In this document: positions 16,370 to 20,075 of the stretch, piece by piece
Position numbering within the stretch: position 1 is the first letter of the stretch
Layout of the letters: the number at the start of each line of letters is the position of its first letter
Assembly (NCBI GenBank): GCA_016185125.1
Contig: JACPOC010000021.1
Span: 62,001 to 126,000, forward strand
Origin: Bacteroidota bacterium
Lineage (GTDB): Bacteria > Bacteroidota > Bacteroidia > B-17B0 > Aurantibacillaceae
Length of the DNA stretch: 64,000 bases
Reading direction: 5' to 3'
Program-made: the position numbers and the translations under genes
Notes under the pieces: model-generated
Database searches by the model: none
What the model was told of the DNA's origin: nothing
Seen by the model: only the letters and a program-made list of their open reading frames with translations

Positions 16370-16442
16370 GCGGAAATAGCTCAGTTGGTAGAGCGCAACC
16401 TTGCCAAGGTTGAGGTCGCGAGTTCGAGCCTCGTTTTCCGCT
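16370..16442 (+). tRNA. tRNA-Gly (anticodon GCC)
   Basis: A 73-base cloverleaf: acceptor GCGGAAA pairs with TTTCCGC, D-arm GCTCAGTTGGTAGAGC, anticodon stem CAACC/GGTTG around TTGCCAA (anticodon GCC), T-arm with GTTCGAG, discriminator T. CCA is not encoded. A promoter lies just upstream and a hairpin terminator follows at once. Confidence 0.97.
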
Positions 16443-16443
16443 C

Positions 16444-16471
16444 AAAAACCCTCTCTTCGGAGAGGTTTTTT
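16444..16471 (+). terminator. Intrinsic terminator between the two tRNAs
   Basis: Stem CCTCTC / GAGAGG with a TTCG tetraloop, flanked by an A run and followed by six Ts. It lies two bases after tRNA-Gly, so either tRNA-Leu is made by read-through or it has its own weak promoter in the short gap. Confidence 0.75.
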
Positions 16472-16489
16472 ATGATTAGTCGCCAAAAT

Positions 16490-16573
16490 GCCTGGGTGGT
16501 GGAACTGGTAGACACGCAGGACTTAAAATCCTGTGCTTTCACGAGCGTACGGGTTCAAGTCCCGTCCCGGGTA
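16490..16573 (+). tRNA. tRNA-Leu (anticodon UAA)
   Basis: An 84-base class II tRNA: acceptor GCCTGGG pairs with CCCGGGT (two G-U pairs), anticodon stem CAGGA/TCCTG around CTTAAAA (anticodon TAA), an extra long variable arm, T-arm GGGTTCAAGTCCC, discriminator A. CCA is not encoded. Its 3' end borders a mobile-element relic on the other strand, suggesting it served as an integration site. Confidence 0.96.
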
Positions 16574-16576
16574 CAT

Positions 16577-17944: not shown

Positions 17945-18772
17945 TTAATCGTTCAGTCCTTTTATTACTTCACTAACTAATTTAAATCGCTCAACCAACG
18001 TATCGCCACTATCTCTTACTTGATACATTGAATCAATTTCTAATTCTGAAAAGCCCTTTAAACGGCTTACTAAAATTTGGTTTAATTTAATTGATAATTC
18101 CTGACTGCCCGATGCGATGTTTTTAATTTGTCTGCCAAGTAATCGTGCAGATGCAAGGGTTAATTCAAAATCGTCTTTTATTAAATCTTCGTGTTCAACG
18201 CCTTCAAACAATTGGTCTCCAGCTATTTCTCCGTAATTCTCTAACAGAAAATAAAAGTCTTCTAAATCCTTCGCCCTTCTATCAGGCTTTTCGTAAAATG
18301 CAATTAATTTTAACACGCATAAGCCCGGCAGAGTAACAACTTTAAATGCTCCTTCCACAATTTCGGCATACGCCACCGCTTCTTTTGTCCCATAGACAGA
18401 AAGTTCGGTAGGCGGGTTTTCTAACAACACTTCTCCATCTTTTTCTATGCCACCAAATGGAATTAAATCAATTGTTCCGTTAAAGTAAAAACGATAAGGT
18501 TCTTCCTCATCTCTTGTGAATCCATAGGTTTCAACTAAATCTTTTACAAGGGCTTTGTATTGCTCGTGTTCATTTATGTAAATACAAAAATCAACATCTT
18601 CGGTAGTTCGTTTCTCGCCAAGTGCAATATGGTCTGTCCATAAATCTCTTGCTCGTGCGCCAATTAAATAATAGTCGATGCCGTACTTTTTAAAAGCCAG
18701 TTCCAACACTTCAAAAGTCTCTTTAAGACCTTCTTTTTTTAAGCGCTCAAAATTTTTCTTTAAAAAACTCAT
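17945..18772 (-). CDS. AbiEii-like nucleotidyltransferase (type IV toxin-antitoxin toxin)
   Basis: A 275-residue protein of the nucleotidyltransferase fold. YLIGARARDLW (Gly38-Ala-Arg) followed by RTTEDVDF (Asp59-x-Asp61) is the active-site pattern of the AbiEii/AbiGii and related toxin NTases, and a Lys-containing LPGLCVLKLIAFYEK helix with RAKDLEDFYFLL follows, as in that family. Such toxins transfer nucleotides to tRNA or other targets. The ATG at 18772 is preferred; a TTG at 18796 would add eight residues. The start lies 26 bases inside the upstream antitoxin-like gene, which is typical of a toxin-antitoxin pair. Family placement is by motif only; another Bacteroidota NTase subfamily is possible. 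Confidence 0.8.
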   Translation of the reverse strand: MSFLKKNFERLKKEGLKETFEVLELAFKKYGIDYYLIGARARDLWTDHIALGEKRTTEDVDFCIYINEHEQYKALVKDLVETYGFTRDEEEPYRFYFNGTIDLIPFGGIEKDGEVLLENPPTELSVYGTKEAVAYAEIVEGAFKVVTLPGLCVLKLIAFYEKPDRRAKDLEDFYFLLENYGEIAGDQLFEGVEHEDLIKDDFELTLASARLLGRQIKNIASGSQELSIKLNQILVSRLKGFSELEIDSMYQVRDSGDTLVERFKLVSEVIKGLND

Positions 18773-19757
18773 TGTATATTTTTTGTGCTGTTTCAATACA
18801 GCGATGGTCGCCTGTATTCATTAAATCGGTATAAATTAATAAAGGAGGAACTGTATTGTCGTTAACTTCATCATACTTCCAAAACTTTTTATACACCCTA
18901 ACATTTCCTTTCGGGTCAGGAATTAATCTGTAATGCTTTATCAATTCGTTTCTTGTTTCGAGCGTATAAAGTGTAAGTACAGCAGGTTTTAAATAATCGG
19001 TAAATAAATTTCCGGCTGGTTCGCCACCCCACCAAGTTTTACCTTGTTTTATCGGCAACCTTTTCCAGTTTGCAAAATCTTCTTCTTTTAAAAATCGGAA
19101 TGTCCCTATTTCTAATTCGGGCTTTAATTTTTCTGCATACTTTATCATCCATGTATTCAGCAAGTCTTTTTTATTGATTAGTTTATATTCGTCTTTATTC
19201 ATTTTTAAGATAAAGCCTTTTTCTTTTAACCCATTTAAAATGTAATTAACATTGCCTAAAGCTATTTCTGCACGGTGTGCAATTTCACGATACGGAACAT
19301 TAATCAATGTTTCATCACGTAAAAAATCGAACAAAACTTTTAATCCTGTTTTTGTAAAAGCACGGTTAATTTTTTCTTTTTCTTCGGGGAGTGTTTTATT
19401 TGCATCAATCCACAACAAATTTTTTTCAAATTTCAACCAAATATTTCCGTTGGCTTCCAAATATGCAATGTTGTTATTTCGTAATTCTTCTTTTATTTTA
19501 GGAAAAATGTGGTCAGCAATAATAATGAGTGGAGCTTGGTCTTTTGCCAATTTATAGATTAAGGGTAAATGAATAGTACGTAAGTTGTTTTTAACTTCTG
19601 CATTTAGTTTTATAAGGTTCTCGTTATAGGCAAGTTCTATTTGCCCATCCAATCCATTATCTGCCTTCTTTGGGTCAATAGGCTTCCACTTGCCCTTTAT
19701 TTGGGCAGTTCTTTGGAGGTTTTCTAAAGCTGTTGTTACTATATTGTGTTCTTTCAT
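18747..19757 (-). CDS. AbiEi-like antitoxin / transcriptional autoregulator
   Basis: A 336-residue protein upstream of, and overlapping, the NTase toxin. Residues about 130-205 form a winged helix (FDFLRDETLINVPYREIAHR, then EIALGNVNYILNGLKEKGFI). The C-terminal half (KTWWGGEPAGNLFTDYLKP, ending in a VPPLLIYTDLMNTG segment) resembles the conserved domain of type IV TA AbiEi-family antitoxins. The ATG at 19757 is chosen because a 10-base-arm palindrome lies at 19774-19795 just upstream; the frame is open to a TTG at 19799 but that would place the operator inside the gene. Known AbiEi proteins repress their own operon through two inverted repeats, and two matching repeats are present here. Confidence 0.8.
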   Translation of the reverse strand: MKEHNIVTTALENLQRTAQIKGKWKPIDPKKADNGLDGQIELAYNENLIKLNAEVKNNLRTIHLPLIYKLAKDQAPLIIIADHIFPKIKEELRNNNIAYLEANGNIWLKFEKNLLWIDANKTLPEEKEKINRAFTKTGLKVLFDFLRDETLINVPYREIAHRAEIALGNVNYILNGLKEKGFILKMNKDEYKLINKKDLLNTWMIKYAEKLKPELEIGTFRFLKEEDFANWKRLPIKQGKTWWGGEPAGNLFTDYLKPAVLTLYTLETRNELIKHYRLIPDPKGNVRVYKKFWKYDEVNDNTVPPLLIYTDLMNTGDHRCIETAQKIYNEFFKEKF

Positions 19758-19773
19758 TTTCGCTTTGTTAATC

Positions 19774-19795
19774 CCGTTCACGAAATCGTGAACGG
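19774..19795. promoter_or_regulatory. Operator palindrome 1 of the AbiE-like operon
   Basis: A perfect inverted repeat with 10-base arms, CCGTTCACGA and TCGTGAACGG, separated by AA. It lies directly downstream of the -7 box, over the expected transcription start, and 16 bases before the AbiEi-like ATG. Confidence 0.8.
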
Positions 19796-19796
19796 T

Positions 19797-19828
19797 CAAA
19801 TATAATGAACAATGATTGAAATTCCAAA
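19797..19828 (-). promoter_or_regulatory. Promoter of the AbiE-like operon
   Basis: On the minus strand TTTG (19828-19825), a 20-base spacer and TATATTTG (19804-19797) match the Bacteroidota consensus. The two palindromes lie one on each side of it, a layout expected for strong repression. Confidence 0.8.
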
Positions 19829-19848
19829 TTCGTACACTATTTAGCCTT

Positions 19849-19866
19849 GTTCACGTTTTCGTGGAC
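19849..19866. promoter_or_regulatory. Operator palindrome 2 of the AbiE-like operon
   Basis: GTTCACG-TTTT-CGTGGAC, the same half-site as palindrome 1 with one mismatch, located just upstream of the -33 element. The two centres are about 73 bases apart, close to seven helical turns, so bound proteins could face the same side of the DNA. Confidence 0.65.
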
Positions 19867-20075
19867 GAATAATACTCAACGCTAATCTCCCAATTAGGAT
19901 GACGAAAAGCGTGGAACTTCAAAGAGATTAAGCGGTCGTTTTTTGAATTAAAACACCGATTTCCAATTACGAGAATTCATCAGGTTTCTAAGTGATTGAA
20001 AATCATCAATTAAGTTCGATAATCCCAATCCGTAGGGTACGAGAATGTGAGTGTAAGCTGACTAATCATTAGAGA
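19867..20075. other. Gene-free stretch of the island
   Basis: About 210 bases without a convincing coding frame on either strand. I see no repeat, tRNA or known RNA motif. Because a good terminator follows on the plus strand, a lost or unrecognised small RNA gene is possible, but nothing in the sequence proves it. Confidence 0.3.

Follow-up and report, generated by a model that had tools for sequence, protein, structure and literature searches.

Among the described systems closest to the locus studied here is AbiE of Streptococcus agalactiae (AbiEi COG5340, AbiEii COG2253; PMC3985639), a bicistronic system in which an antitoxin that also serves as a repressor is paired with a nucleotidyltransferase of the DUF1814 type. 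According to the available text of the reports, this repressor is a winged-helix protein and its repeats overlap the promoter, and the operator comprises two 23-bp arms of the type TGTTGC..., placed 3 bp apart and bound by two AbiEi monomers (PMC3985639; PMC7319586). The pair Rv2827c-Rv2826c (MenAT4), in the available portion of PMC7319586, likewise has two upstream pairs of repeats, multiple binding sites and autorepression. In MosAT of SXT the antitoxin of a toxin-antitoxin pair represses its own promoter, and the available portion of PMC2654960 gives no binding site for it. Autorepression is known, as far as the available text of these papers goes, for other AbiEi proteins (PMC3985639; PMC7319586) and for MosA (PMC2654960). 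The available text of PMC3985639 also names pairs of COG4861 and COG4849, probably the branch to which the pair described below belongs, and describes no operator for them. Literature searches, with subscription papers largely outside their scope, returned no description of a four-box operator or of phage-borne AbiEi sites.

We analysed a stretch of 64,000 nucleotides from the genome of a Bacteroidota bacterium (hereafter the window), in which an earlier note, made from the sequence alone, had recognized two palindromes flanking the promoter of an AbiE-like operon. The features discussed in this work are as follows.

17945..18772, minus strand: AbiEii-like nucleotidyltransferase toxin gene, 275 aa, PF08843 E 1.7e-06
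18747..19757, minus strand: AbiEi_2-type antitoxin/repressor gene, 336 aa, start ATG 19757, PF09952 E 5.5e-29
19758..19763, minus strand: half-site 4 of the promoter array, degenerate (GCGAAA), immediately ahead of the ATG; most homologues have an intact TGAAC
19774..19795: CCGTTCACGA-AA-TCGTGAACGG, start-proximal palindrome that supplies half-sites 2 and 3 of the promoter array, kept in homologues
19797..19804, minus strand: -7 box TATATTTG of the Bacteroidota type, read by eye
19806..19810, minus strand: GTTCA, serving as half-site 1 of the promoter array, just upstream of the -7 box and at a 17-bp step from half-site 2, kept in homologues
19824..19828, minus strand: -33-like TTTGG, 19 bp from the -7 box, read by eye
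19832..19836, minus strand: TGTAC with one mismatch, inner half-site belonging to the upstream array, at a 17-bp step from the upstream palindrome
19849..19866: upstream palindrome, a second, partial array, GTTCACG-TTTT-CGTGGAC, at the same place in close homologues

The antitoxin gene comes first in the pair (101.8 bits to PF09952, AbiEi_2, against a cut-off of 21 in the profile search) and the toxin gene second (28.6 bits to PF08843, above the curated cut-off of 22.5), and the two overlap by 26 bp. The 336-residue protein matched only AbiEi_2 and generic winged-helix models, and no domain of the AbiEi_4, AbiEi_3 or AbiEi_1 type was found in it at E<=1. We take PF09952 to be equivalent to COG4861. 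In the toxin, motifs II (DVD), III (KLIAFYEK) and IV (KDLED) can be recognized by eye, with motif I reading G-A and not G-G/S; motif III resembles the COG4849 motif KLxAaxxR as given in the available text of PMC3985639. The antitoxin belongs to a different family from AbiEi of S. agalactiae and carries an added N-terminal domain. The start codon favoured by the earlier note, ATG 19757, fits the data: the alternative upstream TTG at 19799 lies inside the -7 box, upstream of the expected start point, and the last half-site in relatives is mostly located directly before the ATG or at most about 20 bp away from it.

The arms of the start-proximal palindrome (19774-19783 and 19786-19795) are 10 nt long, 100% complementary and separated by 2 nt, and those of the upstream palindrome are 7 bases long with one mismatch, the second copy being GTTCACGTTTTCGTGGACG at 19849-19867; the start-to-start spacing is 73. 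Between the palindromes, TATATTTG and TTTGG presumably represent a promoter of the Bacteroidota consensus. The pair described earlier, with perfect 10-base arms and a one-mismatch copy 73 bp apart on the two sides of the promoter, is therefore real, but an additional half-site 17 bp inside each palindrome and a degenerate one by the ATG had been overlooked. Three of the four half-sites of the promoter array are exact in the window, the fourth showing two mismatches and an 18-bp step, and the boxes of the upstream array read GTCCA, TGAAC and TGTAC. By itself the inner motif GTTCA-N6-8-TGAAC is no great rarity, with 8 occurrences in the 3.34-Mb genome against 2 for a backward control; the part above chance is the recurrence of the pair at 72-75 bp in close homologues. 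One match to the inner palindrome elsewhere in the genome (contig C5 14106-14122, L099) has no outer boxes, is apparently coding when inspected by eye, and looks like chance.

Homologues were found in 10 of the 100 genomes searched, with the window's own genome counted, and a scan of the species-genome collection yielded 51 loci. When upstream regions were compared for the same half-site, as had been proposed, the repeats proved to be kept: both palindromes recur at the same place and with the same spacing in close homologues, including one from another family of the class (L010). The conserved unit near the abiEi start is GTTCA-N12-GTTCA-N7/8-TGAAC-N12-TGAAC, of which the palindrome forms only the middle. 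The best array within 250 bp upstream was perfect (20/20) in 34 of 50 close-relative regions and had one mismatch in 5, two in 4, three in 4, five in 1 and eight in 2, whereas among 1000 dinucleotide shuffles five mismatches were reached 3 times and fewer never. The three worst regions turned out to have wrong boundaries, and rescanning gave two perfect arrays and one with 2 mismatches; in L022 and L026 the perfect array found is the upstream one. This set comprises 47 of the 51 loci together with the window, L005 and L010, the loci left out being L024, L035 and L037, whose genes start off the contig, and the weak match L064; both members of the near-identical pairs L018/L040 and L060/L061 were kept.

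The array keeps its form while the promoter and the start codon move. The -7 box, as read by eye, is placed between box 1 and box 2 in the window's clade and ends at box 1 in Flavobacteriaceae, which amounts to a shift of about 13 bp relative to the array. In close relatives the fourth box is mostly placed directly before the ATG or at most 17 bp from it, and in one family of the phylum (L071-L079 and relatives) box 3 is itself the start codon, ATGAAC, with box 4 in the next codons of the antitoxin gene. Because the -7 box shifts and some genes start inside the array, the array looks like an operator and not like promoter sequence.

Of the 50 close-relative regions, 14 have a second array upstream, full or partial; a script found it in 10, and inspection by eye added 4, including the window. 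Its distance is 72-75 bp in the window's clade and in L050, 84 in L027 and 183 in L026; outside this set it is 54 in L082, 83 in L308 and 70 bp in L143. Such minority presence and varied distance mark the second array as an added, not an essential, part, and paired palindromes do not hold as a rule of the family. Helical phasing of the two arrays was also considered and rejected, as not every one of the distances (54, 70, 72-75, 83, 84 and 183 bp) is a whole number of turns.

Across the phylum, PF09952 was detected in 46 of 395 genomes (51 matches). With steps of 16-18 allowed, 25 of 46 regions have a perfect array, 4 have one mismatch, 1 has two and 16 have at least three, while all 92 shuffles have at least four; the five matches not included are the duplicates L092 and L094 and the partial or broken L087, L108 and L120. 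The 16 poor regions comprise five with N24 pairs, two with GTACA arrays and nine without a convincing array, five of which were placed from a C-terminal match with no frame picked out, so that the start was possibly missed. L095 and L097 use the word GTACA within the same grammar (20 and 19 of 20). L085, L086, L089 and L090 carry two GTTCA-N24-TGAAC pairs exactly 70 bp apart, and L083 two GTCCA-N24-TGGAC pairs, again exactly 70 bp apart. As N24 equals the distance from box 1 to box 3 and from box 2 to box 4, the array may be regarded as two interleaved inverted pairs.

From 33 matching plasmid records, 15 loci were sampled. With the grammar kept and the word left free, 11 of them reach 19 or 20 of 20, and for nine of these 11 the score was never reached in 60 shuffles each. 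L417 (Actinomycetota) displays a weaker array by eye. The array is absent from L131, L135 and L138, and the loci without it include two on cyanobacterial plasmids and one from Hymenobacter in which the gene is split. A search of a second phylum, presumed to be Pseudomonadota, found PF09952 in 6 of 398 genomes: L145 is perfect, L143 carries a mirror-image pair of partial arrays at a distance of 70 bp, a variant can be made out by eye in L142, and L141 and the truncated L144 are without an array. L140 is also perfect, yet it is the same locus as L031 and perhaps a contaminant of that assembly.

The AlphaFold2 model of the 336-aa protein (38 sequences, mean pLDDT 88.5, pTM 0.66) comprises three domains. 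The middle one is modelled as a MarR-like winged helix (Z 8.1) with the recognition helix at residues 167-179, the N-terminal one resembles PD-(D/E)XK nucleases (PaqCI, EndoMS; Z ~7), and the C-terminal one resembles the nucleotidyltransferase ANT(2'')-Ia (Z 7.7); the Z scores of the two terminal domains fall in a range in which a common arrangement is possible. No AbiEi structure appeared among the structure-comparison matches listed. In the N-terminal domain (residues 1-118) D37-G38 and K56, the latter in an ExK motif, are nearly invariant. The AbiEi_2 domain (residues 225-336) aligns over its length with ANT(2'')-Ia, and the antitoxin and the toxin may perhaps share an ancestral fold.

The first residue of the predicted recognition helix varies together with the box word. 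His167 is present in all four loci where base 3 of the box is A or C (GTACA/GTCCA; L095, L097, L418 and L083) and in none of the 72 other array loci, in 71 of which base 3 is T as scored and in the remaining one, L139, T after a one-base frame move (this locus was scored as TTCAC and reads TTTCA by eye). In this comparison GTTCA words were given a bonus of 0.5, and the 18 loci without an array scoring at least 18.5 were left out, except L083, which was added by hand. As the covariation comes from four loci, belonging to about three lineages, the evidence for a reading of the box by the recognition helix is good but small.

The exact array is present in 34 of the 395 phylum genomes (backward control: 0), 25 of which also contain PF09952 and nine of which do not. 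Other AbiEi-type genes lie near the array in four of these nine, namely AbiEi_3/AbiEi_4 in L301, AbiEi_3 in L303, DUF6088 with AbiEii in L300, and AbiEi_4, below the cut-off, in L304. In three Bacteroidota loci (L296, L297 and L298) a second array is found downstream of abiEii, in L297 about 1 kb away, so that both sides of the operon are occupied; in L298 the two arrays share, by eye, an inverted half.

The exact four-box array also occurs in at least 120 stretches of viral contigs, in 71 flank groups among the matches listed, whereas the reversed word, N10 in place of the N12 spacers and the permuted word GTCTA gave 0 each; one single-mismatch variant was found 16 times and the GTACA array 14 times. 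Phage arrays are mostly intergenic: 18 of the 120 listed fall within ORFs of 100 aa or longer, compared to 72% of random points, and for the GTACA arrays the figures are 2 of 14 and 77%. Spacer base preferences of phage arrays and AbiEi_2 promoters correlate with r 0.87, with AT-richness partly shared, and in the same comparison a pyrimidine precedes the inner box in 94% and 98%. For 80 viral loci, which had been selected by exact match, a one-strand script returned 77 perfect arrays; no array had one or two mismatches, a single one had three and another 4 had four, against 1 with four mismatches in the shuffled counterpart. The phage arrays are real and non-random. Arrays of the word TTTCA (72) were not counted, as 45 of 72 lie in ORFs of at least 100 aa compared to 76% of random points, and several look like one coding sequence repeated.

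L208 is Gordonia phage Bantam. In Bantam, SpeedDemon, DatBoi and Mollymur the four boxes occupy the gap that separates the MuF-like head protease gene from the following gene, which encodes a scaffolding protein or, in DatBoi, a hypothetical one; the boxes persist and the spacers differ, the first spacer being 11 in the close relatives Bantam, SpeedDemon and DatBoi and 12 in Mollymur. Daredevil has, by eye, a hairpin at the place of the array. In mycobacteriophage Alvin the array lies between two tail genes, and one box is altered in BPBiebs31, which is 98.5% identical to Alvin; in two Streptomyces relatives of L209 the array is absent. An RNA-structure reading of the phage arrays was set aside because the boxes stay the same instead of compensating. 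The array adjoins a tRNA gene in 9 of 20 viral loci scanned, which had been partly picked for that look.

In whole records, PF09952 was detected in 0 of 50, 1 of 50 (L262) and 0 of 34, which makes 1 of the 120 GTTCA viral records listed and 0 of the 14 GTACA records; many records are fragments. A protein-level search for close homologues in viral contigs covered 65 pattern stretches and returned no relative, and one in annotated phages returned none. A winged-helix profile run on the viral loci picked out no convincing reader protein (best E 0.09), and Blast of the phage flanks yielded, among the matches listed, nothing, unannotated metagenomic phages, or short matches to tRNA genes.

The array with its fixed spacing, independent of promoter and start codon, and the covariation of its word with residue 167 lead us to regard the palindromes as part of the autoregulatory operator of an AbiEi_2-type type IV toxin-antitoxin operon, with a probability of roughly 0.87. 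By analogy with the described systems, the best-supported reading is that AbiEi_2 would bind and repress at its own promoter; we infer its binding, oligomeric state, repression and antitoxin activity. The AbiEi_2 winged helix (recognition helix 167-179) would read the half-site GTTCA, and the basic operator would be the 51/52-bp array of four half-sites, i.e. two direct pairs (17 bp) turned towards one another, which would lie over the promoter and the transcription start. The same array could be viewed as two interleaved inverted pairs with a register of 29-30 bp, to which two dimers or four monomers would bind, and it is the variants with GTTCA-N24-TGAAC only that argue for this view. Binding over the -7 box and the start point would block RNA polymerase, and the second array of the window's clade, about 73 bp (roughly seven helical turns) upstream and beyond the -33 box, would probably tighten repression by bridging or blocking. 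Against the operator reading stand the degenerate half-site 4 of the window itself and the nine phylum regions without a convincing array.

The earlier note had seen here two independent palindromes equivalent to the IR1/IR2 pair of classical AbiE, matching known AbiEi in number, place and half-site. Its AbiE-like reading is supported inasmuch as homologues keep the repeats and the AbiEi_2 domain is accompanied by an AbiEii partner, but the classical two-repeat operator is not supported. Two repeats do flank the promoter at 72-75 bp, in close relatives as well; however, the S. agalactiae operator in the available text of PMC3985639 is TGTTGCTTTTATACCACAAATAT-N3-AAAATTGTAGTGTAAAAGCAACA, with 23-bp arms 3 bp apart and another word, whereas here there are four GTTCA half-sites with 17-12/13-17 spacing, and most homologues have the start-proximal array only, with extra half-sites 17 bp further out, which makes this version improbable. 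MenAT4 is no closer a match, with four 23-bp repeats, gaps of 13 bp and 4 bp and a COG5340 antitoxin (available portion of PMC7319586). That the boxes are merely conserved promoter or 5'-UTR sequence, with no repressor site, is hardly credible: half-site 1 does adjoin the -7 box in the window's clade, but between clades that box shifts by about 13 bp against the array (by eye), in one family half-sites fall inside codons, and phages of Gordonia and Mycobacterium carry the same array.

The arrays found away from AbiEi_2, both in the nine of 34 genomes and in phages, indicate that another protein may use the same sites, and a different widespread DNA-binding protein could even be the actual reader, with AbiEi_2 promoters and phages both carrying its sites. 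We consider this less likely than not: nine of the 34 array-bearing phylum genomes and 119 of the 120 listed array-bearing viral records (many of them fragments) are without PF09952, but box word and AbiEi_2 recognition helix vary together, and in four of the nine exceptions AbiEi-type genes of other kinds lie nearby, the one in L304 scoring below the curated cut-off. A recombination or cassette-boundary site spread with defence genes would agree with the second arrays downstream of some abiE operons, one pair of which shares an inverted half (by eye), and with arrays at the ends of other defence-like genes. Yet half-sharing between arrays is dominated by T-rich spacers, arrays mostly lie within about 20 bp of abiEi starts, and no recombinase was recognized by eye among the recurring neighbour proteins of phage arrays listed, and we judge such a role very improbable.

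If the arrays are AbiEi_2 operators, phages of unrelated hosts might carry copies of them, matched to AbiEi_2 specificity, that compete for the host's AbiEi repressor-antitoxin; we offer this tentatively, as somewhat short of an even chance. The match of specificity on the phage side, i.e. GTTCA and also GTACA as for the His167 type, is judged jointly with this link to AbiE and is just as tentative. The phage arrays may be decoys for AbiEi, or a signal by which AbiE senses the phage. Decoys would represent a DNA-only counter-defence, with the operon derepressed and the antitoxin raised or sheltered, while as a signal the array would report a replicating phage to AbiE; either would be a DNA-level answer to the question of how an AbiE system and a phage meet. 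Should phage arrays bind AbiEi, short non-coding DNA would be a decoy or trigger for a toxin-antitoxin defence, and the arrays offer a direct way to test how phage infection is linked to AbiE activation or evasion. For a branch of AbiEi without an operator in the literature searched, the analysis provides an exact operator grammar and a one-residue specificity rule, both testable.

Two minor observations concern the surroundings of the operon. Positions ~19880-20060 of the window, the ~200 bp upstream of the operator, resemble by eye positions 1200-1380 of L010, whose genome belongs to another family, and the operon and its upstream DNA look as if they had moved together. Genes for tRNA-Gly and tRNA-Leu are located at 16370-16574, about 1.4 kb beyond the toxin gene; tRNA genes nearby are a common setting of mobile defence genes.
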